From positions 1-26,457 of IMG/VR virus record IMGVR_UViG_3300042898_000564: a DNA stretch of 26,457 bases; one strand, 5' to 3'. Under the pieces are notes generated by a model. The model was not told where the DNA came from and ran no database searches. It was given only the letters and a program-made list of their open reading frames with translations. A program made the translations under genes and the position numbers. Positions 1-21,040 of the stretch are shown here, one piece after another (position 1 is the stretch's first letter; each line of letters begins with the position of its first letter). The stretch comes from a virus.

Positions 1-1169
1 ATAATATGCCATCTACCCGTGCCTGCCATTTTATCTGTTACTTTTCTAGATAATGACAATACAAAATCTGCAATCATAATTTTCGAATACGATTCTGAAA
101 TTTTATCAGCTTCGATAATATCCATTTCTAATGCTGACCTATTTGCCTGAGATGCTGTAAATACAGGAACTTCATACTCTCCTGCCAAACCTCGTAAATC
201 TTCATAAATAGATTCTAACTCATGTCTCATTTCTTTTCTAGATACAGCACCTCTCAACAAATCGGCATAGTCGACAATAATTACATCAGGCTTCTTACCT
301 ATCAAAGTCATTTTTTCAATATGTGCTCTTAAGGTTAAACAAGAAGCTGTCTTAGTTGGATAGTATTTAATTGTTAAATTTCCTTTTAATTTACTTACGG
401 TATGTTTAATGTCTTCTTGATTATACTTTAAATTTTGAGCTGCGATACCCGTAACTACCGCATCATAACGTTGACCTACATACCCTTCATTTAATTCTAA
501 TGTATAATGAACTACATTTAAACCTTGTTTAACTGCATGAGCGCCTACGTTAATAAGACCCCATGATTTACCGATACCGGCTGGAGCTACAAACACTACC
601 ATTTCACCTTTACCGAAACCACCATCGGCTAAATCATTAATGACTGGCCATGGCGTAGGAATAGTTGATCTAATATTGTCTTTGTATCGTAATTCAACTT
701 CATCATTATATTCATGACCAATTGCCTTATCAGCTCCAGCTTTCATTGCATTATCAATTGCTAATTTAATTTGATCATATTCACCTTGTTCTAAAAGTGA
801 TACTGAATCTAAAATTGCTCTTTTAATGCATTGGTTTTTACAAAATGCAACTGTTTCATCTTTAATAAAATCTAAATCATTTGATTCTAAATGCTTATAA
901 ACTTCTTTTAAAGAATCAATAACTGACATTTTCATTATATCAGATGTAATAGCCGATGTCTTGTATTTAAAAACGTCTAATGTAGGTGTTTGACTAAACT
1001 CATGAAAGTATTTGATAGTATTGTCAACAATCCAAGAATTAGCATCTGAATCAAAAAATTCAGGTAATAAAATATCTGAAACTTGTTGTAAAAATGCTTT
1101 ATCTGTCAACAATGCAGAAATAGTCTTTACTTGAAAATTATTTCCGAATGCTGTTAATTTATCTGCCAT
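1..1169 (-). CDS. 41: Replicative DNA helicase, DnaB/gp41 family (3' end cut by window)
   Basis: ATP-driven hexameric 5'-3' helicase that unwinds DNA ahead of the phage replisome. I translated it by hand from the ATG at 1169; it stays open for 389 residues to the window edge, so the C-terminus is missing. The N-terminal ~160 residues are the helical domain. The RecA-like motor follows: Walker A APAGIGKS (195-202, K201), a strand ending in the catalytic-Glu region HYTLELNEG (221-229), Walker B DVIIVDYADLL (295-305, D300) and the sensor-like TASQANR (338-344). This order is diagnostic of the DnaB/gp41 superfamily. It follows the 5' nuclease gene by 36 bases and is probably co-transcribed with uvsX and SSB. 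No ATATTTAT octamer lies upstream, unlike the structural units. The family call is firm; the exact T4 orthology is inferred from context. Confidence 0.93.
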   Translation of the reverse strand, partial: MADKLTAFGNNFQVKTISALLTDKAFLQQVSDILLPEFFDSDANSWIVDNTIKYFHEFSQTPTLDVFKYKTSAITSDIMKMSVIDSLKEVYKHLESNDLDFIKDETVAFCKNQCIKRAILDSVSLLEQGEYDQIKLAIDNAMKAGADKAIGHEYNDEVELRYKDNIRSTIPTPWPVINDLADGGFGKGEMVVFVAPAGIGKSWGLINVGAHAVKQGLNVVHYTLELNEGYVGQRYDAVVTGIAAQNLKYNQEDIKHTVSKLKGNLTIKYYPTKTASCLTLRAHIEKMTLIGKKPDVIIVDYADLLRGAVSRKEMRHELESIYEDLRGLAGEYEVPVFTASQANRSALEMDIIEADKISESYSKIMIADFVLSLSRKVTDKMAGTGRWHI

Positions 1170-1205: not shown

Positions 1206-2264
1206 TTATTTGTTTGCGTATCCTGCTAAAGCTGAGAAACTATTTTGTAACCAACTGTCTACATTGGGAATAGCGGTATATGCCTTATCAAACATAAATA
1301 CTTGTTTAAACTTTAGTTTATTAAATGTAGGTGTATCTGCATCAGCTAAATCTCTAATCAATGACTTGAATGTACCTGCAATATCTAAATCTTCTAAATT
1401 CATTATAGCATAGTTTTGTCTAATAACAGTTTCTGCATCTAGTATTTGTTGATACACTTTATGTTCTGATAATCTATCTTTACAATACTCAAACACATCA
1501 TCAATTTCTAATTGTTTATCTTCTAATAAAACAGGAATACGTTTAATTAATGTCTTAGGACCAATACCATCAACTCCTTTTACATTATCAGATGCATCAC
1601 CTATAAATACTTTAAAATGAATATAGTTATGAGATGGCACTCCGAATTTTTCTAATACCTCAGGCTCATTAAACATTTTCTTTTGTACTGGTCTCCATAC
1701 TTGAGTATTTTCATTAACCAACTGAAGAAAGTCTTTATCATCTGACATAATAGTTACTTTGGATTGTTTAGGTCTAAAGTATTCTGTAGTTAAATAAGCA
1801 ATAGTATCATCTGCTTCAATATTGTCAATTGAAATACATGTAATAGGTAAACATTCTAAATAAGAAACTAGCATACCATATTGACGTTTCATTGACTCCA
1901 TTTCTTGCTCAACAGTCATTTCACCTACTTCTTCTGAACGTCTAAATCTAGTATTAACAGTTCTGTTTTCTTTATAAGCAGAATTGATTTTTCTACGACG
2001 AGACGCGCCTCCTTTACCGTCAAATACTATAATACATCTAGTAGGATTAAATTGTCTAATAACAGCGGCAATAGATCTTAAAAATCCTATTGAACCGCCG
2101 ATGTGATCGCCGTCATCATTTACTAATGGGACTGCGCTAAAAACTCGAATAAAAGAATTTGTACCATCAACAATAAGAACTCTGGAATCTTTATTGACTC
2201 CAGAGCCTCCTTGTTCATGTTCTACTCGAATTTGTTTTAATAATTCTGCGTAACTTTTTAACAT
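1206..2264 (-). CDS. rnh: 5'-3' exonuclease / flap endonuclease (T4 RNase H-like)
   Basis: PIN/FEN-superfamily nuclease expected to remove RNA primers and 5' flaps from lagging-strand fragments. The metal-binding acids are all visible: D33 in VDGTN, D82 in FDGKGG, E150/D152/D153 in IEADD, D175/D176/D178 in SDDKDF, and D223/D226 in GDASDN. They are followed by a helix-hairpin-helix (GVDGIGPKTLIKR, 230-242) that holds the downstream duplex. At 352 residues it is somewhat longer than T4 RNase H (305), mainly through a ~28-residue N-terminal lead before the first strand. No later start codon fits, because residue 23 is GTC. The stop of uvsX lies 2 bases upstream, so the two are almost certainly on one transcript. 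It could equally be called a stand-alone Pol I-type 5' nuclease, which would complement the family A polymerase nearby, since that enzyme lacks such a domain. Confidence 0.92.
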   Translation of the reverse strand: MLKSYAELLKQIRVEHEQGGSGVNKDSRVLIVDGTNSFIRVFSAVPLVNDDGDHIGGSIGFLRSIAAVIRQFNPTRCIIVFDGKGGASRRRKINSAYKENRTVNTRFRRSEEVGEMTVEQEMESMKRQYGMLVSYLECLPITCISIDNIEADDTIAYLTTEYFRPKQSKVTIMSDDKDFLQLVNENTQVWRPVQKKMFNEPEVLEKFGVPSHNYIHFKVFIGDASDNVKGVDGIGPKTLIKRIPVLLEDKQLEIDDVFEYCKDRLSEHKVYQQILDAETVIRQNYAIMNLEDLDIAGTFKSLIRDLADADTPTFNKLKFKQVFMFDKAYTAIPNVDSWLQNSFSALAGYANK

Positions 2265-2266
2265 GT

Positions 2267-3427
2267 TTATGATTCTTCACCTTCGAATTCGGTATCGATA
2301 ATAATATCATCAACGCCAAAATCCGCACCTGCTCTGTAATTTAAAATATACTTGTCACAAATTACATTGTATATTTGATCTCGCATACCAGGTTGATCTA
2401 ATAACTTACCTTGAAAGTCTTTAGATTGAAATTTAATTTCTTCTCCGGTGGAAGTGTCGGTATATGTATACCACGCACCTGCCTGTGTCACAAGCTTAAA
2501 ATCTTTAAGCATTGTTAACCAAGAACCATAATCATCAATACCAGAATCAAAGTAAATTTCATAGTCAATTGACCTCAATGGAGGCCCCATTCTATTTTTA
2601 ATTACTTGTGCTCTAGTTTTAATTCCAAATACTTCTTCTCGACCATTGTCATCTTTAAGTTTAATTTGACCAATTGACTTAAGACGAAGACGAACTGATG
2701 AGTGGAATCCAATTGCTTTACCACCCGAAGTTGTATATGGATCTCCGAATGATACTCCTAATCTAGTACGTAACTGATTTGTAAAAATCAAACAAAGACG
2801 TTCTCTACCTACAAAATTTGTAATCTTTCTCATTGCTTTTGAAAGTACAATTGCTTTTGAAGTAGCCCAACCATCTTTGTCAAATTCAGCTGCCATTTCT
2901 TGCTTGGTTGAAGCACCCGCTATTGAATCTACTACAATCGTAACTAGTCTGTCTTTTGAAGACTTTCTTACTGATTCAGCTAAGGTTTCAATTGCTTCAA
3001 AGATATCCTCTACTGTTTCCAAAGGAACGTAAAGCATTTCTTTTAAGTTAACTCCAATTGCTTCTAGAAACTCTCTTGAAATAGCATTTTCTGTGTCTAT
3101 ATAAATAGCCAAGCCGCCTTTCTTTTGAGTGTTAGCTAATGCATGAGCTGCAATTAATGACTTACCCGAAGCTTCTAAACCGGTAATTTCGGTAATTCGG
3201 CCTACTGGAAATCCACCGTGCGGTCTATTTGCAATTGCTAAATCCAACATGGTTGATCCCGTTGAAATCCATTCATTTACGTCGGACGGTGAATCCGTGT
3301 CCCCATCTAAAAAGTAAGCAACCTTATGATTAGATGCTTTAAACTTTTTATTTAGGTTTTCTGCTAGAACCCCTGCTAAGTTGTCTTGTAGATCAACCTC
3401 AAGGATTCCCTGTGATTTTTTTGCCAT
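2267..3427 (-). CDS. uvsX: UvsX-like RecA-family recombinase
   Basis: Strand-exchange ATPase for recombination-dependent replication and repair. It contains Walker A GLEASGKS (83-90, K89), the catalytic-Glu motif YIDTENA (109-115, E113), Walker B TIVVDSIAG (163-171, D167) and the RecA L2 region beginning TNQLR (216-220) and running to SGGKAIGFHSS (234-244). The length of 386 is close to T4 UvsX (391). The N-terminal ~50 residues resemble a short polymerisation segment and the last ~50 are acidic (ending EFEGEES). It sits between the SSB gene (16 bases upstream) and the 5' nuclease, a typical recombination/replication cluster. The protein would load on gp32-coated single-stranded DNA. The UvsX assignment rather than bacterial RecA rests on length, the divergent P-loop (E-A-S-G-K-S, not ESSGKT) and T4-type neighbours. 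Confidence 0.93.
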   Translation of the reverse strand: MAKKSQGILEVDLQDNLAGVLAENLNKKFKASNHKVAYFLDGDTDSPSDVNEWISTGSTMLDLAIANRPHGGFPVGRITEITGLEASGKSLIAAHALANTQKKGGLAIYIDTENAISREFLEAIGVNLKEMLYVPLETVEDIFEAIETLAESVRKSSKDRLVTIVVDSIAGASTKQEMAAEFDKDGWATSKAIVLSKAMRKITNFVGRERLCLIFTNQLRTRLGVSFGDPYTTSGGKAIGFHSSVRLRLKSIGQIKLKDDNGREEVFGIKTRAQVIKNRMGPPLRSIDYEIYFDSGIDDYGSWLTMLKDFKLVTQAGAWYTYTDTSTGEEIKFQSKDFQGKLLDQPGMRDQIYNVICDKYILNYRAGADFGVDDIIIDTEFEGEES

Positions 3428-3443
3428 ACCTTAAATTAATTGA

Positions 3444-4226
3444 TTACTGATTGAAAAGATTATCGAATGCCGATGCTACATCGTCTACAGTCGCTACTGA
3501 TCCTGCAGATGATTCTAGTCCAGATTTGTTTGCATTTGTTGCTTTAGTAACAGGGGCTGCTGCTTCAGCTGATGCTTCTGGATCTAACCATGATTTCAAT
3601 AAATTTTCAATTTCATCATAACTGTATTCTTTAAAAATCTCAGTTACTTTAGGTTGTTGACCTAATTTTTCAATAACACCTTTGTCTTGAGTTACAGGTG
3701 TTTGATTTGGTTTAACACGAATCGATGTTTCAGGAAAGTCTTTACCTGTTTGTTCTTTTGATTTAAAATCAACGGTTACGTCTCTACCAGTTACTGGATC
3801 AGTGATATCACCATAATCAGGATCTGCAATAAATCCTAATAGTTCTTGATACACTTGTTTACCAAAACCCCAAAACTTAACTCCTTCTGATTCTTTACCT
3901 CTTACTAGAATTGGTACATAACAACGCATAGTTGGTTCTAATTTCTTACCCATTTTCCAATCATCAGAATTACCTGTTGATTTTAATTTTTCTGCAAATT
4001 CTACAATAGGATCTTGCTTACCAAATGAAATTGGAGAAAGAATGTTTTTACCACTAAAATTGTAATGAAAGTACAATTCCATGAAAGGATTTTCACGATT
4101 GTGTTGAAAGGGAACGATACGAACTACGTTTGTCCCTACTTCTGGTTTCCAAAGATTGTCTTGTTTCTTTGTTACGGTCTGCAAAGCTTGAAGCTTGCTT
4201 TTGATTTGATCTAAATTGATTGCCAT
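3444..4226 (-). CDS. 32: Single-stranded DNA-binding protein, gp32 family
   Basis: Coats single-stranded DNA during replication and recombination. The N-terminus (1-35) is Lys-rich, like the gp32 B domain. The core aligns with gp32 at NVVRIVPF (33-40) and at CYVPILV...GVKFWGFGKQVYQELL (102-130), matching gp32's YWANILVV...VFKYRFGKKIWDKI. The C-terminus is an Ala/Ser linker ending DDVASAFDNLFNQ, equivalent to gp32's acidic protein-interaction tail but less acidic. Length is 260 against 301 in T4. T4 gp32 binds zinc with one His and three Cys; here C102 is the only cysteine, so the zinc site is absent. The leader just upstream holds a tandem heptamer array (4237-4278) that looks like an autogenous operator. 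uvsX follows 16 bases downstream. Confidence 0.88.
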   Translation of the reverse strand: MAINLDQIKSKLQALQTVTKKQDNLWKPEVGTNVVRIVPFQHNRENPFMELYFHYNFSGKNILSPISFGKQDPIVEFAEKLKSTGNSDDWKMGKKLEPTMRCYVPILVRGKESEGVKFWGFGKQVYQELLGFIADPDYGDITDPVTGRDVTVDFKSKEQTGKDFPETSIRVKPNQTPVTQDKGVIEKLGQQPKVTEIFKEYSYDEIENLLKSWLDPEASAEAAAPVTKATNANKSGLESSAGSVATVDDVASAFDNLFNQ

Positions 4227-4358: not shown

Positions 4359-4748
4359 TCAAATGTTGATAATCTGATAAACTTTTGTTTTTAAACAACG
4401 AAGTTCATTGTTAGATGCAATTAAGAATTGATTTGCATACTTGCTCCAATCAATTACATAACTAGTATCTAATATACCATTATTTTCTTGTTTTATCAAA
4501 GCATTTAAAGAATTTACTGTAAACAATGTATTTGTTTCTTTTCTTCTATGAACAATCATTGCACCTGGTAACATTCTTTTTATATGTTCAGATTTGTTTA
4601 TGTTAAAACTACAAACTAACTCATCTGATGCTTCAATTGAAAGTATAAATATTTTCTTATATGCTAATTCATACGTCTTCCCGATCATCTCAATTGTATG
4701 ATCTAATTCTGATTCCGTTGTAAATAAACAGATAAGTTGTACACTCAT
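4359..4748 (-). CDS. Conserved-looking hypothetical protein, 129 aa, next to SSB
   Basis: I do not recognise a characterised family. The protein is small, mixed alpha/beta and soluble, with no signal peptide or membrane segment. It opens with a hydrophobic strand (VQLICLFTT), has a second strand KKIFILSIEA, and then a distinctive central stretch HRRKETNTLFTVNSLNALI (residues 67-85). From memory, similar RKKETNTL(F/Y) proteins occur as hypotheticals in marine T4-like phages, but I could not check this. It is transcribed just ahead of SSB and just after the polymerase. It has its own ATATTTAT octamer (4770-4777) and one of the few good ribosome-binding sites here (AAAGGA four bases before the ATG). 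Its place beside gp32, uvsX and polymerase suggests a replication or late-transcription accessory role, which is inference only. Confidence 0.7.
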   Translation of the reverse strand: MSVQLICLFTTESELDHTIEMIGKTYELAYKKIFILSIEASDELVCSFNINKSEHIKRMLPGAMIVHRRKETNTLFTVNSLNALIKQENNGILDTSYVIDWSKYANQFLIASNNELRCLKTKVYQIINI

Positions 4749-4779: not shown

Positions 4780-6129
4780 TTAAAGTTGGTTTTTTACTTC
4801 AGTTAAATTATGATAGTCTGGTCCGATCTCTAATGTTATTGGAAACTTACCATTTTCTTCAAATTCTTCTTTTAATATATCAATTAGTTTCCGCCCGTCT
4901 AACGTATGGAAATCTATAACAAATGCATCATATGTATAAAGTATAATCTTACTTTGACAAGTTCGTATACGATCAACTATATTATTAATTACAGCCATAT
5001 TTCTTTCCGTTTCATATGCCTGTAATAAATAGTTAAGAAGCTTTGCAGGATTCAAATCAGTAAAAAACTTACCATGTAATTTTCTACCAAATAATGGAGT
5101 TTCGATAAATCCATTGTCTCTATAAAATTCCCATAGTCGACTTGTATACTCTGAAATTTTATCGAAAAATGGAACAACTAAATACTCTTGTTGAATACCT
5201 CCATATAACTGTCTAAATGAAATTGACTTAGACTCACTGTATTCATCATCTGATAACTCTGTTTTATCAAAATAGTACTTTCCTAAATATTCATGTACCG
5301 ATACATTATCCGGAAATGAATAATCTACTAGATTTGCTAATAAACGTAAATGGTAAGCATCATAATCAAAAGACATTAAAAAGCCATCTTTTCCAAATCT
5401 ACTTATAAATGTACTACGTTCTCCATCTTTCTTTAAAGCTGCAAAGTTAATTCCATTAAATCTATTAGATGGTCTACCTGTTGTTGTATATGGATTATAT
5501 TGTGTATATACAAATCCATTATCAATAGGTGTCTTTTCAAAATACTGATTCATTAATTCAGGTCGAACAAATAATCCATTCTGTTCAATTTCATATAAAG
5601 CATTCAATGCAGTTTCATTATAAAACTTAAATGCATCTGTATCTTGATAAAAATCCAAGTCATTAAAAAATACATTTACTATTGACTGACACATTTCTAT
5701 ATGTTTAGTTAAAGGAATAATTGTATTTAAATTATTGAATCCTGGATATGTACGAGCAAAAAACTCATGAGCATATGTTTCAAATTCATTTGGCATTGAC
5801 TCGTTACGATGAAAGTATCGAACCATATCCATATCAATTAAATTTGGATGAGATGAAAATCTCTTAAATGATTTTTTATTGTATACGAATATATTAGTAG
5901 TCGTTGGAATTTGTTCTAATATATGTACTGGCAAACGTTGACCTTCTGTATGATTAAATACGCATCCAAATTCTAAATCTGAATATAATACATATACATA
6001 TAAAAATGAAAGAGAATCAGTGTGAGTAGATTTAAACCCATTACTGTAAATCGGAACAATAATCCAATCCGATTCCGAATGCTCACTTAATAACTTTTCA
6101 TATTCGGCAACTGATTCTACTATTATCAT
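4780..6129 (-). CDS. Family A DNA polymerase, short, with degenerate exonuclease domain
   Basis: Template-directed DNA synthesis; probably the phage replicative polymerase. The C-terminal half carries family A signatures: TTGRPS (216-221), motif A SFDYDAYHLRLLANL (253-267, metal ligand D255), motif B KSISFRQLYGG (301-311; K301, F305 and Y309 match the O-helix Lys, Phe/Tyr and Tyr) and motif C LYTYDAFVIDF (397-407, catalytic D401). Departures: the motif A Glu of DYSQIELR is H260, the O-helix Arg upstream of K301 is missing, and motif C has Y-D-A in place of H-D-E. Residues 1-155 follow the pattern of a DEDD 3'-5' exonuclease, but the DxE strand is VPIYSNG (25-31), so proofreading should be lost. 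At 449 residues it is much shorter than Klenow (~605). There is no 5' nuclease domain; the separate gene at 1206 could supply that. Upstream genes are structural. Confidence 0.85.
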   Translation of the reverse strand: MIIVESVAEYEKLLSEHSESDWIIVPIYSNGFKSTHTDSLSFLYVYVLYSDLEFGCVFNHTEGQRLPVHILEQIPTTTNIFVYNKKSFKRFSSHPNLIDMDMVRYFHRNESMPNEFETYAHEFFARTYPGFNNLNTIIPLTKHIEMCQSIVNVFFNDLDFYQDTDAFKFYNETALNALYEIEQNGLFVRPELMNQYFEKTPIDNGFVYTQYNPYTTTGRPSNRFNGINFAALKKDGERSTFISRFGKDGFLMSFDYDAYHLRLLANLVDYSFPDNVSVHEYLGKYYFDKTELSDDEYSESKSISFRQLYGGIQQEYLVVPFFDKISEYTSRLWEFYRDNGFIETPLFGRKLHGKFFTDLNPAKLLNYLLQAYETERNMAVINNIVDRIRTCQSKIILYTYDAFVIDFHTLDGRKLIDILKEEFEENGKFPITLEIGPDYHNLTEVKNQL

Positions 6130-11978: not shown

Positions 11979-14365
11979 TATACTGCCCCGTATGAATTAT
12001 CTACTTTACCTACATAACTTCTATTCATTGTCTGAACTTTATCAATTTCATTAACTACTTTATTACCTATTTTAACTATAACTGGTTGGTTCATTGCAGC
12101 TGCAATTTGTTTAAGTAATGCAACTGTTTCTGAATCGCCCGATGATTGTTGATTGCCTCCAAATAAATTACCTAACATTGCTAATGGATTTGCCATATTT
12201 GAAGCTTCACCTAATCCAGTACCTGCTATTACTGTATCATCAGGTGCCAATTGATATGTACCTTTTTTACCTGATACCATTAACCCACCATCGGGTGCAA
12301 TTTGCGCATCATGTTCTTTTTTAGGTGTATCACCCGCAGCTTCTTTTGATTTATCTTCATTTAATCCTAACAACTTTAACGCCCAATCAGGAAGTAATCC
12401 TTTTATTTTATCTGTTGTCCATCCTAAAGCGTCTTCTGCCATCTTTTTAATACTCGGGAAAAATCCTTTAACTAAGTCAAATGCCAATGTAAATGGCCGT
12501 AATAAATATTTTATTATACCCGAGCCTATATCAGATAATCCACTAAGGAAATCTCCTTTAAATATTTTAACAATGCCTTTAATAATATCAAATGCCATTT
12601 GTATAGGAGCAAATGCAAATTTCATTAATGGGCCAATCGCAGGCAATATAAAATCAACTATCTCTGTAAGTGGATCTAAAATTTCCATCATCGGACCAGC
12701 AATTTTGCCAAATATAGCCATTACCTTATTACCCATTTCAGCTAATTTTTCTTGAGCAGAAGCTTGTTGTTGTTGAAGCACTAATTTTCTAGCTTCTTCA
12801 GCAGTCGTTGCTTGTAACTTAGCTAAATCTTCCTCTTTTAAATCTGATATAGACTTAATCTCACGACCCGATTCTTTCGATAAATCGTTTAATAGTTTTT
12901 GTTGCTCAGCGCCTTTTATTAATGCATCAACTTCCATATTAGCAGCTTTTGCAATAGCCTCTCGTTGGTATGGCGCCATTTTCATTAATTCGTCATACCC
13001 GCCCGCCTGCTTCATAATTTCTTCCATTGACTCATCAATTTTTCCATTTAAAGCTAATTCTCTTGCTTTATCTAGATTCATGTCTTTGCCAGTAAGAACG
13101 CGGGCTTCCATCTCAGCTGCAAGTGATCCTTCAATATCTAATAATCCATCTGTGATAGATTTAACTTCATCTAATGTCTTACCAAATTTTCTAGCAGTAA
13201 TTACTGCTTTTGTTAATTGGCTTATATTTCCTTTAAATGTAGCTTGAACTGCTTTAGAACTACTCGCAACATCTTTCATAACAGCCTTATAATTCATCAT
13301 ACCACCTGTCATTTCTTCAGTAATACCTTGAATTGCAACTACGTTTTGCTCCGCCGTCCTTCCGGATAACATCGCCATTCGTTGAAACATCGCTGCATCT
13401 TCGCCTGCTAATCCATATTGTTTAGTTAACAACACTTGCGTTTCGGCCATTTCAGCTGTTGCTAATTTTGCACTGCCTAATACATTAGCTAATTCCATAT
13501 ATGATTTAGACATTTCGCCAGCTGAAGCTCCAATGACTTTTGTATTTTCGGCTATGTCTAAAAATTCATGATGTAAATGTTCTGCTTCTTCGCGTGATAT
13601 TCCTAAACCACGTGCCATATCAGTAAGCTCTTGATCCATATCAAGTGCTTCCTTAATTAGTATTACCGCTGCGGCCGCGGCGATTGCATATGGATTAATA
13701 CTTTTTAATGATGTAACTAAACCTTTTGCTCCTTGTTTAAATCCTTTAAATCCCCCAATTAAATTGTCTTTAAAAGATGCTCCTTCTTTAGTAGCTCCCT
13801 GTAACGTTGCTGAAAAGGTTTTTGTTAAATCTTTTGCAATACGTTCTTTTAAGTCATCTACGCCTAATGCTTTTGATAATATACCGCCTACTACAGGAAT
13901 TGACTCAATTGAATGTTTAATATTATCAATAAATCCTAATGATTCTTCAATTTCATCGCCGTATTTTTCTTCTATAGCATGAATCTTTTGCTGCTGTTTT
14001 GCTATTTGTTCTTGTAATTTAAGTCGCTTTTTATCAGTTTCTAATTCTTTTAATTTAGCTTTTCCTATCTTAACAGCACTTTTTGTTTCATTTAATATAA
14101 ACCCATGTTCTTTTCGTTTATCCTTTAAATGTTCGCCTGATAAACGTTTAATTGCAATTGCATGTGATTTAACTACATTTTCATTTTTTTCAATGTCTGA
14201 TAAAATACCTAAACGCTGTTCATCTATTTTTAATAATTCAGCTGAATAATCAACGATATCGCCTAATACGTCAGATTCCTTTTCCTGTTTCTTAGCAAGT
14301 TGCTTCTTTAACGAAGCAATTTCCTTGGCTTGGTCTGCAATTAGTTTATCGTGGTCTTTAGCCAT
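11978..14365 (-). CDS. Tail tape measure protein
   Basis: Sets tail length during tube assembly and is held in the tube lumen. Features: an N-terminal coiled coil (about 1-140, nearly all Glu, Lys, Gln and Leu), a hydrophobic Ala-rich helix (INPYAIAAAAAVILIKEAL, about 223-241), a long helical middle (about 245-545), and a second hydrophobic block (about 560-640) with MEILDPLTEIVDFILPAIGP and FAPIQMAFDIIKGIVKIF. The C-terminus is Gly-rich and polar, then LLKQIAAAMNQPVIVKIGN. At 795 residues and roughly 1.5 angstrom per residue, a rule of thumb for other phages, the tail would be near 120 nm. It is flanked by the tagged 131-residue gene (TAATG overlap) and the large baseplate gene, with the gp26/frameshift gene just before: the standard chaperone-tape measure-baseplate order. 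T4 gp29 is the functional counterpart. Confidence 0.85.
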   Translation of the reverse strand: MAKDHDKLIADQAKEIASLKKQLAKKQEKESDVLGDIVDYSAELLKIDEQRLGILSDIEKNENVVKSHAIAIKRLSGEHLKDKRKEHGFILNETKSAVKIGKAKLKELETDKKRLKLQEQIAKQQQKIHAIEEKYGDEIEESLGFIDNIKHSIESIPVVGGILSKALGVDDLKERIAKDLTKTFSATLQGATKEGASFKDNLIGGFKGFKQGAKGLVTSLKSINPYAIAAAAAVILIKEALDMDQELTDMARGLGISREEAEHLHHEFLDIAENTKVIGASAGEMSKSYMELANVLGSAKLATAEMAETQVLLTKQYGLAGEDAAMFQRMAMLSGRTAEQNVVAIQGITEEMTGGMMNYKAVMKDVASSSKAVQATFKGNISQLTKAVITARKFGKTLDEVKSITDGLLDIEGSLAAEMEARVLTGKDMNLDKARELALNGKIDESMEEIMKQAGGYDELMKMAPYQREAIAKAANMEVDALIKGAEQQKLLNDLSKESGREIKSISDLKEEDLAKLQATTAEEARKLVLQQQQASAQEKLAEMGNKVMAIFGKIAGPMMEILDPLTEIVDFILPAIGPLMKFAFAPIQMAFDIIKGIVKIFKGDFLSGLSDIGSGIIKYLLRPFTLAFDLVKGFFPSIKKMAEDALGWTTDKIKGLLPDWALKLLGLNEDKSKEAAGDTPKKEHDAQIAPDGGLMVSGKKGTYQLAPDDTVIAGTGLGEASNMANPLAMLGNLFGGNQQSSGDSETVALLKQIAAAMNQPVIVKIGNKVVNEIDKVQTMNRSYVGKVDNSYGAV

Positions 14366-14760
14366 TATTTATCAAAGTTCTTTTTAAATAATTTTGTAGA
14401 CTTATTTTTAATGTTTTTAGTCCACTTAGAATATTGTTGCATGAATTCGTCAGTAGACATATCAGAACTAAATTTATAGCCATATTTCGTAGCTTCATCA
14501 TACATCTTTTCAGCTTCTTTAACTTGAGTCGCAGCGTCTTTTTCTAATTGAGCTAAATGTTCTGCTGTTAATTTAATTTGCGCTTGCAAATTTTTCCACT
14601 CTGTAGATTTTTTAATTTTTTCAGCATCTCGTTTAACTTTAGGAGTTAAAATAAGAGATATAATTTTATCTACTAGTCCTTCGACAATTAACGGACTATT
14701 TGAATAGTCGTACTTATTAACTTCTTCTGTTATAATAGATCTAATTTTAGATAGTTTCAT
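14365..14760 (-). CDS. Small tagged helical protein before the tape measure, 131 aa
   Basis: Unknown function. The N-terminus MKLSKIRSIITEEV fits the shared tag seen on five other proteins here (Met-Lys-x-x-x-Leu/Ile-Arg-x-Ile/Leu-Ile-x-x-Glu-Val). Unlike the others the tag lacks the closing Ala-Leu-x-Glu, but an (I/L)xE site, IVEG, occurs at 25-28. The rest is charged and helical, with a likely coiled coil about 40-85 (rich in Lys, Glu and Ala: KLTAEHLAQLEKDAATQVKE) and a strongly basic C-terminus (KNIKNKSTKLFKKNFDK). It overlaps the tape measure start (TAATG), so the two are translationally coupled. It has its own ATATTTAT octamer (14779-14786) 18 bases before the ATG. It may be a tail-assembly factor or a small virion protein; nothing decides between them. 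Confidence 0.75.
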   Translation of the reverse strand: MKLSKIRSIITEEVNKYDYSNSPLIVEGLVDKIISLILTPKVKRDAEKIKKSTEWKNLQAQIKLTAEHLAQLEKDAATQVKEAEKMYDEATKYGYKFSSDMSTDEFMQQYSKWTKNIKNKSTKLFKKNFDK

Positions 14761-15956: not shown

Positions 15957-16427
15957 CTATAAGTATATCTCTGTTTGTATATATACATCAGGCATAATCC
16001 ATGCTCGTCTAACTTCACGGGGATGATTTCCTCCTGGGTCTCTGAACGGATCTTTAAATTTACTTTTTTCAATTTTTAGTGTATTTAAAAAGTCTTTAAT
16101 TGTTTCTGATCCGGTATACTTTAATTTGTTTATCTTATACAGCGTTTCAAGAGAATCAATATTATTTTGTTTTAGCATGTTAGCAATTGATATTGCCATT
16201 TTAGGTGCACTGGGCCTATACAATTCTTTGCCGTCTCTTCTGCGTTGATCGAAAATTTTATAATATGTAGCTGGTAAAAAAGTTAATCTTAAATACTTTA
16301 TAACATCAGCTGACTTAGTAAATTCGTCTAAAAATGAATTATCATTTTCTTTTACTAATTTAGTAGATTCATTAATAGCGTTACGAACTTCAGTTTTAAT
16401 CAGGTTTCTTAATTCTTGTATTTTCAT
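15957..16427 (-). CDS. Tagged protein of unknown function, 156 aa
   Basis: The N-terminus MKIQELRNLIKTEV is the shared tag, ending in an INE/S site at residues 18-21 and followed by VKE at 25-27. The remainder has no family I recognise. It is mostly helical and basic (KYLRLTFLPATYYKIFDQRRRDGKELY; SIANMLKQNNIDSLETLYKI), with a Pro-rich basic stretch DPFRDPGGNHPREVRRAW near residues 124-142. There is no signal peptide or membrane segment. It stands alone between an octamer 50 bases upstream (16478-16485) and a strong terminator. A packaged virion protein is plausible if the tag is a targeting or maturation signal; that is inference. Confidence 0.75.
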   Translation of the reverse strand: MKIQELRNLIKTEVRNAINESTKLVKENDNSFLDEFTKSADVIKYLRLTFLPATYYKIFDQRRRDGKELYRPSAPKMAISIANMLKQNNIDSLETLYKINKLKYTGSETIKDFLNTLKIEKSKFKDPFRDPGGNHPREVRRAWIMPDVYIQTEIYL

Positions 16428-16493: not shown

Positions 16494-17030
16494 TTATAAA
16501 TCACCTGTTTTGCCCTTGAAAAGAATATCTGATTTCTTAAGGCCTTGTGTATTTAACCATTTACCTAATTCATAATTCATATTAGGTATAGGTTCATTTT
16601 CGTTACCGGGTGTTTTTAATTTAGGTAATAATACAGTATCTATAAACTGTTTTTCTATCGTATCATCTAATATAATAGATACTTCAGGATCTAATCTAAT
16701 TGCATCCCAAAATGGAGTCGTTAATTGTTTAAATTCTGAACCTTTAGGATTTTTTAGCTCATCGTTCGAAACTGTTTTACCTAATGCAAATAAAGCTGAT
16801 GCAACTGTTTTAATGTCTTTAATATTATCATATACATCTAATCCTTTTTGTATAATACTAATACCCGGCACTAATGACATTCCAAATTTACCTAATTTTT
16901 TTAATGAACTAACAGCGTCCTGTTCATTAGCCTTACCTACAATTACTTCAAATGCTTGTTTTACTTCGCCCCATGTAGGTTGCGTATCTTCTAATAAAAG
17001 TTGTTCTGCTATAGGTTTAAGCTTGATCAT
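16494..17030 (-). CDS. Unknown helical protein, 178 aa, with a different N-terminal peptide
   Basis: Not a family I recognise. The N-terminus MIKLKPIAEQLLLEDTQ is a short amphipathic, Leu-rich segment ending in LLED. It is not the common tag of its neighbours but has similar style and could be a second type of targeting peptide. A moderately hydrophobic Gly-containing stretch (GKFGMSLVPGISIIQKGL, about 47-64) and KTVASALFALGK (about 74-85) could associate with membranes or be a buried helix hairpin. The C-terminal half contains PFWDAIRLDPEVSIILDDTI and KWLNTQGLKKSDILFKG. It overlaps the upstream 113-residue gene by 14 bases, so it belongs to the ferritin transcript. Confidence 0.7.
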   Translation of the reverse strand: MIKLKPIAEQLLLEDTQPTWGEVKQAFEVIVGKANEQDAVSSLKKLGKFGMSLVPGISIIQKGLDVYDNIKDIKTVASALFALGKTVSNDELKNPKGSEFKQLTTPFWDAIRLDPEVSIILDDTIEKQFIDTVLLPKLKTPGNENEPIPNMNYELGKWLNTQGLKKSDILFKGKTGDL

Positions 17031-17358
17031 TTGAAGCTTGTTTTAATACACCTTTTAATTTACTAGCTATTTGAGTAAAGTCTTGTTCTGTAATACCAAA
17101 TGCAATTGCGACTGCGCCTAATAAAGCAACTCGTTGAGCATTATTTTTTAATGACTTAACAGCTGTCGGATCTTCAATTAAATCTATTACTTTAGCTCTG
17201 ATAGAACTGTCAATAGCTTTAATAGCCATATTTAAATTTTTAATGACTTGAGGATCTTGTATTTTATTACCGTCAGGTCCTACAGGAATAATATCTACTT
17301 CATTTAATGCAGATACAATTTCTTCTTTGATTAATTTTCTTAATTCAGATGTTTTCAT
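17017..17358 (-). CDS. Tagged protein of unknown function, 113 aa, downstream of ferritin
   Basis: Begins with the best tag of the set, MKTSELRKLIKEEI, running into ALNE at 17-20, an (L/I)xE site. After the tag: a Pro/Gly linker (VDIIPVGPDGNKIQDP), then two or three helices, including an Ala/Val-rich hydrophobic one (RVALLGAVAIAFGITEQDF, about 76-94). No known domain. The start codon abuts the ferritin stop (TAA immediately followed by ATG), so production should be coupled to ferritin, and the 178-residue gene overlaps its 3' end. If the tag marks virion cargo, this could be a partner or carrier for ferritin; nothing in the sequence proves that. Confidence 0.75.
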   Translation of the reverse strand: MKTSELRKLIKEEIVSALNEVDIIPVGPDGNKIQDPQVIKNLNMAIKAIDSSIRAKVIDLIEDPTAVKSLKNNAQRVALLGAVAIAFGITEQDFTQIASKLKGVLKQASNDQA

Positions 17359-17880
17359 TTAATTAAAATATGTTTGTTCAAAATATAATACTTCAAAGTT
17401 ATTTTCTACATTTACTAGCATTGCAGCATTTAATAGATCTGAATATTCAATTACAGACTCTGTTTGACCTTCTCTCAATTCACGTAAAAAATCAAATGTA
17501 GCTATATCAGAACTAAATAAATCTTGTGAGTCGTTATTATAAGCTTCGAACAAAGAATACTCTAAAGTATATGCTTTATTGACTATGTCGATTAGGTTAT
17601 CGAACGTAATATTAGGCTTAATCGATGGCAAAGTAGGGTATACATTCCAATCTACTAAATACTTTTGAACCTTTTCAGCATGGGTTAATTCATTAGCAGC
17701 TTCTTGTGCAAAGAATGCAGCTGCTTTTAAATATCCTTCACTAGCACACCAGTTATGTGCATTTCTGTAAAAGTAGTGAGCGGTATATTCGTCTTTTAAA
17801 CGATCAGTTAATTTTGAAACCGTATCTGATGATAATGTTTTTGGTGTTTTAATTTCAGATTGAGATACTTGCTTTATCAT
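17359..17880 (-). CDS. Ferritin-like iron-storage protein
   Basis: Four-helix-bundle ferritin expected to oxidise Fe(II) and store iron in a protein shell. It is 173 residues; bacterial ferritins are ~165. Ferroxidase-type residues fall at the right spacing: E31 with Y38 (helix A, DEYTAHYFY), E64 and H67 (helix B, ANELTHAEKVQKYL; 33 residues after E31, as in E. coli FtnA E17-E50/H53), E107 (helix C, YTLEYSLFEAY) and Q139/E141 (helix D, FLRELREGQTESV). The position matching FtnA E130 is Ser and E126 is Gly, so the third iron site is probably altered. A 15-20-residue N-terminal arm precedes helix A; it is not the common tag. It heads a transcript with the tagged 113- and 178-residue genes. A Dps-type assignment is disfavoured because the ligands lie within one bundle. 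Confidence 0.88.
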   Translation of the reverse strand: MIKQVSQSEIKTPKTLSSDTVSKLTDRLKDEYTAHYFYRNAHNWCASEGYLKAAAFFAQEAANELTHAEKVQKYLVDWNVYPTLPSIKPNITFDNLIDIVNKAYTLEYSLFEAYNNDSQDLFSSDIATFDFLRELREGQTESVIEYSDLLNAAMLVNVENNFEVLYFEQTYFN

Positions 17881-17954: not shown

Positions 17955-18188
17955 TTAATAACCTTCCGAGGCACCGGCATCTTTAATATCAATAATTAAA
18001 GAAGCTAATTCATTGTAATCAAATTCTCCTCCAGTTGTACCAAGATAATTTTCTAAAGCTATAACAGCTTCTTTAAATTCACCAGAAGGTTGAATTATTT
18101 TTAAAAGCTCACCTTCACTAAGTTGATTTTCGTTAACTGCTTTACGAACTTCAGTTCTGATCAAGTTTCGTAATTCTTGTAGTTTCAT
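17955..18188 (-). CDS. Small tagged acidic protein, 77 aa
   Basis: The first 20 residues are the shared tag (MKLQELRNLIRTEV, ending in AVNE), with a second (L/I)xE-Gly site, LSEG, at 23-26. The body of ~50 residues is acidic and helical (KEAVIALENYLGTTGGEFDYNELASLIIDIKD), ending DAGASEGY. No known domain. It lies between the homing endonuclease upstream and a terminator downstream, with its own octamer 18 bases before the ATG. The short body could mean it is a naturally small internal protein, or a remnant shortened when the endonuclease gene arrived next door; the clean promoter-like and terminator elements favour the first. Confidence 0.72.
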   Translation of the reverse strand: MKLQELRNLIRTEVRKAVNENQLSEGELLKIIQPSGEFKEAVIALENYLGTTGGEFDYNELASLIIDIKDAGASEGY

Positions 18189-18218: not shown

Positions 18219-19034
18219 CTATTTTAAAACGCCTATTAACTGTTCAATACATGCTAATCGATTATTAACTATATCATTTTCCCAGAATCGAATCAATTTA
18301 TAACCTTTAGATTCTGCTAATTGATTTTTTAACTTATCTAATCCTAAATTCTTTTTCTGAGTATTGTTTAAAGTATCTTCTGTATATTTGATAGGATTTG
18401 CATGCCAATAATCTCCGTCAATTTCTATTAATGTATTTATACTAGGTACATAAAAATCATATTCAAATCCATCTACATGATACTGATGAGTAAATTCTAC
18501 ATTTAATGATTCTAATATACTAGCAAATGTATATTCTAATTTCGATGGATTACCTTTTAAAATTTCTTTTCTATTACGAGCTAATGTTTCTAACAGTATT
18601 TTTTTATGCTCTTCTGACTTTGGCTTACCTTTTAATGCTTTTGATATCTTTGCTCGACGTTTAGGATCTGCAGCTGTAATTCGAATCTTTTCTAATTCTT
18701 CACCTTCATAAACTTTTCCTTTATTCCATTGAGATAATTCGCCGGATCCGAATCGTGTCTTTCTAGTCTCTCCTGATTTTTTAGCTCCTTTTTCAGAATA
18801 AAATCCTCCGTTCACTCTAGCTGCATGTCCTTGAATATACTCACCAAAACCAAATGTAGAAAAATAATTTAACTTTTCATTACAGCCGCATTTACATATA
18901 GGCCATTCTCCGTTATAATGTATATTAACATATGTTTGAGCACCGGAGATTTTGTGAGTTCTAGAATTGTGGTTTTGTAACCCTTTGTATGAATCGAATT
19001 CTCGATTACATTCTTTACACGTAAATTTGTCCAT
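18219..19034 (-). CDS. Free-standing EDxHD (VSR-fold) homing endonuclease with zinc finger and NUMOD3
   Basis: Probable selfish DNA endonuclease. Modules in order: a classical C2H2 zinc finger (C6, C9, H22, H27), a second Cys cluster CKCGC (47-51) followed by a GH at 69-70, a NUMOD3-type DNA-binding helix (RAKISKALKGKPKSEEHKK, 127-145), then a VSR/PD-(D/E)xK-like nuclease. In the nuclease, E167 (SKLEYTF), D193 (YDFYVP), H211 (IEIDGDYWH) and D233 (LDKLKN) follow the E-D-x-H-D spacing of the I-Bth0305I group. The end, GYKLIRFWENDI (244-255), is typical of VSR-like proteins. The gene lies between tail tube and a tagged gene with no intron visible, so it is free-standing, like T4 seg and mob genes. 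Its own octamer lies inside the terminator hairpin upstream. The alternative of a repair VSR enzyme is unlikely given the finger and NUMOD3. Confidence 0.85.
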   Translation of the reverse strand: MDKFTCKECNREFDSYKGLQNHNSRTHKISGAQTYVNIHYNGEWPICKCGCNEKLNYFSTFGFGEYIQGHAARVNGGFYSEKGAKKSGETRKTRFGSGELSQWNKGKVYEGEELEKIRITAADPKRRAKISKALKGKPKSEEHKKILLETLARNRKEILKGNPSKLEYTFASILESLNVEFTHQYHVDGFEYDFYVPSINTLIEIDGDYWHANPIKYTEDTLNNTQKKNLGLDKLKNQLAESKGYKLIRFWENDIVNNRLACIEQLIGVLK

Positions 19035-19650: not shown

Positions 19651-20403
19651 TTATTTTTTCTTATTTGCTTCTTTAATCTTAGACGAATTGTATTGTCTAA
19701 TACTTTCTGTTTTTGCAAATCTTCGTCCGCCGGCTTCTTTGATTTTAGTTCTCATTGCATTTGTAGATTCAACTACTTCACCTTTTGTTTTATCAAATTC
19801 ACCTTTTTTAATTAAACCATGAACTATAAAGTTTGTGCGTGGTTGTTTTGTTAAATACATTACTGTTTTGATTGCATCATTTTCATCATCAACATTATCA
19901 ACACCCCTAATGTATCTAAACTTGTATTGTTTTTTAGTTTTTTGATCTAATACAATATAACCATCATATTGTCTAGACATATCAGCTTCATTAACTACTG
20001 ACTCGCCCATGGATGCTTTTGCGTTATCATAAATTGACTGCAACCAGTCTTTAAATTGTCCTGGTTCTCCAGCCTTAGATAAATCATGATGTGTCTTTAT
20101 AAATTCAGTTACGAATGATTTAAAGTCTTTTGCTTCATGAGCCATTATGTCAATATCTGACATAGATGCTTCATTGATAGATTCATACATTCCAGATTGT
20201 CTTAGTTTTTGTCTAAATGCTGGAATTGATTCTGCCCAAGTTGTTACAGCTTCAACTGCACCTGAATTGTCTTCAAAGAAATCCATTACATCTGAATACC
20301 CTAATACTTCTACTAATTCTTCTAAACCAGAATCACCGCTGTATTCTTGTAATGTTTTCTTTATAGATTCTCTTATTAAATCTCTTAATATTTGTTCTTT
20401 CAT
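19651..20403 (-). CDS. Tagged polyprotein-like protein with several protease-type sites, 250 aa
   Basis: I chose the ATG at 20403, which gives the shared tag (MKEQILRDLIRESI...TLQE); an upstream in-frame ATG at 20451 would start inside the preceding gene and is rejected. The tag ends TLQE at 17-20. Further sites of the form (I/V)xE then a small residue occur at INE/A (76-79), VNE/A (137-140), VVE/S (210-213), IKE/A (221-224) and IKE/A (243-246). T4 prohead protease gp21 cuts after (L/I)xE, usually before Ala, Gly or Ser. Cutting would give pieces of about 58, 61, 73, 11, 22 and 5 residues. Two begin alike (ASMSD, ADMSR), and residues 140-210 look like a small beta domain (YDGYIVLDQKTKKQYKFRYI). 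No known family. It follows the 210-residue tagged gene by 4 bases. Confidence 0.75.
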   Translation of the reverse strand: MKEQILRDLIRESIKKTLQEYSGDSGLEELVEVLGYSDVMDFFEDNSGAVEAVTTWAESIPAFRQKLRQSGMYESINEASMSDIDIMAHEAKDFKSFVTEFIKTHHDLSKAGEPGQFKDWLQSIYDNAKASMGESVVNEADMSRQYDGYIVLDQKTKKQYKFRYIRGVDNVDDENDAIKTVMYLTKQPRTNFIVHGLIKKGEFDKTKGEVVESTNAMRTKIKEAGGRRFAKTESIRQYNSSKIKEANKKK

Positions 20404-20407
20404 CTTA

Positions 20408-21040
20408 TTATATTTTAGTTTGCATTGCCATAGATATGTCCTTAAGGTCATTTTTTAATGTATTTACATTGTATTGACCACCTGCGATAATTTCATAAAT
20501 TATCTTTATTTTTTTACTGTTCTTTTCAACAGACTGCGCATACTTTTTCATGTAATTATTTTTTTCTACTTGCTCAGCAAAGGCTTGCGTAAACTCATCA
20601 AATGATTTTGATTTGCATTGACTTGATAGGTCTTGAGCCGTTTGAGCGTTAAATACTTCAAAGAAATACTCTAATGCATTCTTCATGTCATATGTAGAAT
20701 CATTTAATTCTATTTTTGCTAAACCTGCGGCTCCATATACTAACATTCTAGCGCCTATATAAGGCAATAATTGAGTAGCTAATGCATACTTGGTTCTTCT
20801 AGGATAAATTTTTGAATATCCAATTGGAGATCCTATTACTGCATCTACATCAAACCATACTTTATAATGATCTTGTGGTCTAGAATTTTCCCATGCTCCG
20901 TCAGATAATTGACCTAAAATTTCAGCGTTAAATAAATTAAGCTGAGATTGGTTTTTAACAGTTAATGTACCGTACTTAACTTCCGTTAAAGCTTGTTTAA
21001 CCGATTCTTTTATTAAATTTTTTAATTCAAAAAGTTTCAT
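20408..21040 (-). CDS. Tagged protein of unknown function, 210 aa, after the sheath gene
   Basis: Starts with the shared tag MKLFELKNLIKESV ending in ALTE (17-20). The body contains a compact-looking domain: LNLFNAEILGQLSDGAWENS (34-53), then HYKVWFDVDAVIG, IGYSKIYPRRTKYALATQLLPYIG and a hydrophobic segment ARMLVYGAAGLAKIEL (about 97-112). The C-terminal ~70 residues are Lys/Gln-rich helices. The GQLSDGAWEN phrase looks like a conserved motif, but I cannot name the family. It begins a two-gene transcript with the polyprotein-like gene; a terminator lies upstream, after the sheath, and an octamer lies 17 bases before the ATG. Position between sheath and tube is unusual for non-tail genes. Confidence 0.75.
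   Translation of the reverse strand: MKLFELKNLIKESVKQALTEVKYGTLTVKNQSQLNLFNAEILGQLSDGAWENSRPQDHYKVWFDVDAVIGSPIGYSKIYPRRTKYALATQLLPYIGARMLVYGAAGLAKIELNDSTYDMKNALEYFFEVFNAQTAQDLSSQCKSKSFDEFTQAFAEQVEKNNYMKKYAQSVEKNSKKIKIIYEIIAGGQYNVNTLKNDLKDISMAMQTKI

Follow-up and report, generated by a model that had tools for sequence, protein, structure and literature searches.

A divPolA1-type family A DNA polymerase, probably accessory, in the replication gene block of a T4-like phage

A replication gene block containing a short polymerase gene

The window analysed here is a 26,457-base linear IMG/VR fragment (IMGVR_UViG_3300042898_000564), and its clear genes are all located on the minus strand. The genes of the replication block are listed in Table 1. 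In order of transcription the polymerase gene is followed by ORF129 and then by genes for a gp32-like single-strand DNA binding protein, a UvsX/RecA recombinase, a 5'-3' exonuclease, a domain type that bacterial Pol I carries joined to its PolA part, and a helicase. Baseplate, tube, sheath and further tail genes lie upstream of the polymerase gene, and several of the tail-region proteins found no match in a PHROG search. The order of the replication genes is the same as in phage immuto, save for one additional small gene in immuto. The contig ends 4.8 kb downstream of the polymerase gene, and no family B polymerase is present in the 26-kb fragment, which has no match to PF00136.

Table 1. Genes of the replication block in the window
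Feature	Position	Strand	Basis
divPolA1-type family A polymerase, 449 aa	4780..6129	(-)	ATG start, open ORF
ORF129, conserved companion between polymerase and gp32	4359..4748	(-)	conserved co-occurrence with polymerase
gp32-like single-strand DNA binding protein	3444..4226	(-)	PF08804 E 2e-11; phrog_1192 E 5e-19
UvsX/RecA-like recombinase	2267..3427	(-)	PF00154 E 1.8e-55; phrog_97 E 4e-71
5'-3' exonuclease, stand-alone gene	1206..2264	(-)	PF02739 E 5e-34; PF01367 E 9.5e-8
gp41-like replicative helicase (DnaB-type), cut by contig end	3..1169	(-)	PF03796 E 6.7e-17; phrog_19 E 4e-65

Some other features of the window were recorded. Small minus-strand proteins (14365-14760, 15957-16427, 17017-17358, 17955-18188, 19651-20451 and 20408-21040) share an N-terminal segment of the MKxxELRxLIRxEVRKAxxE type, which is also present in two proteins of G009, a related contig described below (13069-13494 and 13519-13827 of locus L220); the proteins are otherwise different, and the segment may be a tag that they have in common for targeting or for binding a scaffold. 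A ferritin-like protein (17359-17880 (-), PF00210, E 1.9e-18) is encoded among the tail genes, and in G009 the ferritin-like gene is located between those for the helicase and the polymerase instead (L220 15280-15822). A homing-endonuclease-like protein (18219-19034 (-)) combines a C2H2-type finger with a DUF559/MTES-type nuclease domain, and in G009 the tail tube gene is adjoined by a similar gene (L221 14796-15656 (-)).

A family A polymerase with a dead exonuclease domain and a truncated thumb

The 449-residue protein matches the Pfam DNA_pol_A model weakly (E 1.5e-6, below Pfam's cut-off) and phrog_17, 'DNA polymerase', at E 4.2e-11. When the protein alone was compared with PDB sequences, all matches were marginal or irrelevant, and a profile was required; one representing 58 members (set A2) gave E 4.9e-9 in alignment to E. 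coli Pol I and matched Klenow-type structures in the PDB at E 2.5e-6. The AlphaFold2 model (pLDDT 92.8, pTM 0.90) has Klenow as its top Foldseek match (E 7.4e-20), and a second structural aligner placed 413 residues, spanning 1..444 of the model, against M. smegmatis Pol1 with a Z of 27.1. The protein is a family A polymerase, with a Klenow-type fold predicted along its whole length. A reading of the locus made earlier from the DNA alone (the sequence-only reading) had called it a shortened family A polymerase in a T4-like replication block, and the Pfam, PHROG, profile and AlphaFold2 evidence agree on this. Its domains are an exonuclease-fold N-terminal domain without the acids (about residues 1-160), a linker helix (165-182), a truncated thumb (about 183-216) and the palm and fingers (217-449).

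In the profile alignment eight Pol I identities are kept, these being R219 (R668 in Pol I), D255 (D705), K301 (K758), F305 (F762), Y309 (Y766), N366 (N845), Q370 (Q849) and D401 (D882). Four positions are replaced: H260 (E710), Y297 (R754), Y400 (H881) and A402 (E883). The steric-gate Glu is thus His, the O-helix Arg is Tyr, and motif C reads YDA. E710 and R754 matter for nucleotide binding in Pol I.

The N-terminal domain retains the strand and helix order of an exonuclease and lacks the catalytic acids, just as the sequence-only reading had described it. When the acid positions are assigned from motif and secondary-structure order, as distinct from superposed coordinates, D355 corresponds to P26 (Pro in 57/58 members of A2), E357 to Y28, D424 to a position within K86-S87-F88, and D501 to K142/H143. 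The Pfam exonuclease model PF01612 found no match in the contigs of the three nearest relatives, as is expected of a dead domain. The thumb is also truncated, a point absent from that reading: 36 residues lie between the IE.NG helix and TGR, compared with 126 in E. coli Pol I, about 90 residues are missing, and the thumb region of the AlphaFold2 model has no long helices.

The polymerase is a new member of divPolA1

The divPolA1 section of Yutin et al. (2024, Virol J 21:200, PMC11348598) describes an extra PolA from 14 phages, immuto among them; its palm residues are conserved, its thumb is truncated and its exonuclease is inactivated, and it is encoded in a conserved replication neighbourhood. 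According to the same section, the regular polymerase of these genomes belongs to family A, B or C and is encoded close to GroEL/GroES and nucleotide-modification genes, and divPolA1 has a more conserved gene context than the regular polymerases have; the changes at E710 and R754 are not discussed there. Within the literature searched, the name divPolA1 occurs only in that paper and its preprint.

The polymerase of the window is homologous to immuto gp001 (31% identity over 83% by tblastn, E 2e-56), its palm residues are conserved, its exonuclease acids are replaced, its thumb is truncated, and replication genes follow downstream. The gene is a new member of divPolA1, a family already known since 2024; what is added here are the fixed residues, including the change of E710 to His, the abundance of the family, and ORF129 as a constant companion.

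Conservation of polymerase residues among relatives

At least 593 IMG/VR loci encode relatives of the polymerase. Because set A2 was gathered partly with a DYDAYH pattern and is biased towards that motif, we took invariance from a second set (A3), 25 sequences comprising the divPolA1 genes of contigs found through UvsX and of phages found by BLAST, with no motif used. R219, D255, H260, K301, F305, Y309, Q370 and D401 are invariant in 25/25 of these, and D255, H260, K301, Y309 and D401 do not vary even in relatives of 27% identity. The R754 position is more variable (Tyr in 21/25, Met in 3/25 and Arg in 1/25), and motif C ends in DS in 18 sequences and in DA in the other seven. H260, the missing O-helix Arg and YDA, to which the sequence-only reading had drawn attention, are real, since their recurrence in relatives to 27-30% identity argues against chance or sequencing error.

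We considered whether YDA in motif C marks an inactive enzyme and rejected this, because the PolA of phage Tt72, which has Ser in place of E883, is an active enzyme (PMC9324360); neither YDA nor YDS denotes a dead enzyme. E710 is described as the ribonucleotide-excluding residue in the same paper (PMC9324360), and of the papers that a literature query on family A phage polymerases with His as the steric gate returned, none dealt with such a change in its title or abstract. That the exonuclease acids are lost when the polymerase residues are strictly kept favours an enzyme predicted from its sequence to be active and non-proofreading, and we infer that it is catalytically active, poorly processive and without proofreading.

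The invariance of H260 at the position of ribonucleotide exclusion, with proofreading absent and the thumb side open, could also indicate a lesion-bypass polymerase or one that uses ribonucleotides or makes primers, in which the His gate was selected for another substrate or for templates that are damaged or carry a modification (7-deazaguanine); relatives do have 7-deazaguanine genes. We regard this as unlikely, since His is bulky and may be no worse than Glu at shutting out ribose, the equivalent of F762, a residue typical of DNA polymerases, is retained, and immuto has an annotated DnaG of its own. It is very unlikely that the protein is an inactive polymerase-like scaffold organising gp32, UvsX and ORF129. 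Replacement of E710, R754, H881 and E883 and the cut-down thumb would be in keeping with such a scaffold, but both metal-binding Asp residues, the O-helix Lys, Phe and Tyr, and the primer/template residues vary little or not at all down to 27% identity, and their retention when the exonuclease acids are gone indicates selection on polymerase chemistry.

A regular polymerase accompanies the short gene in relatives

Support for an accessory role of divPolA1 comes from the relatives. A regular DNA polymerase is also present in 16/16 relatives with enough downstream sequence, and is of family B in 14 (Mel-JY01, LR756508 and 12 IMG/VR contigs, G009 included), full-length family A in immuto and family C in contig G010. 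In the 15 with a family B or C enzyme the two genes are about 14-23 kb apart, with the regular polymerase on the downstream side, the distance for contig G004 holding if that contig closes on itself; in immuto the regular polymerase (gp199, a 777-residue family A enzyme with an exonuclease) is about 37 kb from the short gene. The six IMG/VR contigs that lack a regular polymerase extend for no more than about 16 kb on the downstream side of the short gene, and one further contig (G022) has UvsX and PolB and begins beyond the point where the short gene would lie. Origin of the short gene by recent duplication of immuto's full PolA is unsupported, as an hhalign comparison against that full PolA was not significant.

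The closest long relative is G009, with a UvsX that is 77% identical and a gene order as in the window. Beyond gp41 it encodes RNR, dUTPase, ferritin, QueD, QueE, GroES and FolE, and then an 855-residue gp43-like family B polymerase in which Pfam matches both the exonuclease and the polymerase domains. In the full sequences of the G009 and Mel-JY01 family B enzymes, examined by eye, the exonuclease and polymerase motifs are intact. The 7-deazaguanine genes FolE, QueD and QueE are near the regular polymerase (L220 8767-11592 and L010 9008-16015), and immuto additionally has QueC, QueF and DpdA as annotated; their presence suggests that the phage DNA is modified.

Accessory status for the phage of the window itself is inferred from these relatives because the window is a 26-kb fragment that ends before the corresponding point, and by analogy a regular polymerase, probably of family B, is expected off the left end of the contig. 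We estimate a probability of about 0.8 that the gene is of divPolA1 type and accessory, beside a regular replicative polymerase, in T4-like phages. The sequence-only reading had instead placed this polymerase in the position of gp43, and the finding that would count against it, a full gp43-type polymerase elsewhere, is made in relatives, such as G009 with its 855-residue enzyme, and not directly in this phage. It would have been a surprise to find that a T4-like phage has replaced gp43 by an exonuclease-dead family A enzyme for copying its DNA; what the evidence favours is an accessory divPolA1. The notion of a main replicase that has displaced gp43, with proofreading by a separate DEDD exonuclease, draws on the location of the gene within a conserved replication block, the greater conservation of divPolA1 context relative to that of regular polymerases (divPolA1 section of PMC11348598) and the lack of a family B polymerase in the fragment itself, but it is scarcely tenable given the other polymerase in every relative with enough sequence and the poor fit of a truncated thumb and no proofreading to a processive replicase.

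ORF129 and a proposed role for the accessory polymerase

ORF129 has no Pfam or PHROG match, and an AlphaFold model of the protein on its own (pLDDT 37.8) gave no reliable fold. Among 50,697 phage records it is found in exactly the six, from three lineages, that have a near-full-length divPolA1. In 36 contigs seeded with UvsX, ORF129 is present in 25/25 with the polymerase, and six with ORF129 alone are apparently cut off at the contig end. The shared motif is LVHRKKETNTLYTINSLN. Linkage in one operon could account for the co-occurrence, but ORF129 is a promising candidate partner dedicated to divPolA1.

In Microcystis phage Mel-JY01 the second gene after ORF129, which directly precedes the one occupying the gp32 position, has a match to S-adenosylmethionine lyase (L003 16760-18046; PF23780, E 4.4e-10); lyases of this type act against restriction.

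As an accessory enzyme, divPolA1 could be a helper polymerase for short-patch synthesis on intermediates coated with gp32 and UvsX. Together with the neighbouring 5'-3' exonuclease it would fill gaps and extend recombination (D-loop) or Okazaki ends, either taking over from the main replicase or giving way to it. The polymerase and the separate 5'-3' exonuclease would then constitute a split Pol I, of which ORF129 may be the dedicated partner. Short-patch synthesis would suit the enzyme because its exonuclease is dead, most of its thumb is gone and its gene has those for gp32, UvsX and a separate 5'-3' exonuclease as neighbours; this specific job in gap or recombination synthesis, suggested by the gene neighbourhood, is a tentative assignment with somewhat less than an even chance of being right. 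It is doubtful that divPolA1 and ORF129 form a two-subunit accessory polymerase in which ORF129 replaces the missing thumb and the His gate confers an unusual nucleotide or template preference. The change of E710 to His, fixed in the members examined, and the companionship of ORF129, seen in each record that allowed a check on the two genes, make the role of divPolA1 easy to test.

Comparison with known systems

The divPolA1 of immuto (gp001) lies in the same gene block and likewise has lost the exonuclease acids, has a truncated thumb and keeps the palm acids. The copy in the window is nearer to those of uncultured T4-like phages whose regular polymerase is of family B, whereas that of immuto is of family A. 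A second group of extra divergent PolA proteins, divPolA2 of barbaviruses, also occurs beside a regular PolB and has no exonuclease domain, and by its description in Yutin et al. (the divPolA2 part of PMC11348598) differs in having an unrelated N-terminal domain and a variable gene neighbourhood.

The Klenow fragment of E. coli Pol I is matched in fold over the whole length, and the equivalents of R668, D705, K758, F762, Y766, N845, Q849 and D882 are kept. Unlike Klenow, the window's enzyme has no exonuclease acids, a thumb about 90 residues shorter, and the changes E710H, R754Y, H881Y and E883A; unlike in E. coli Pol I, the 5'-3' exonuclease is encoded by a separate gene.

Rhodothermus phage RM378, a distant T4-like phage, had been proposed as a parallel by the sequence-only reading. 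Its polymerase (p092) and 3'-5' exonuclease (p024) are indeed on separate genes, but this is not the same lineage trait: both pieces are of family B (PF00136 in p092 and PF03104 in p024), the window's enzyme is of family A, and a search of RM378 with family A models found no match. In T4, as in the window, the replication block includes relatives of gp32, UvsX and gp41; T4 gp43 is a family B polymerase with an active exonuclease, and in relatives of the phage described here a gp43-type enzyme is encoded by a separate gene.
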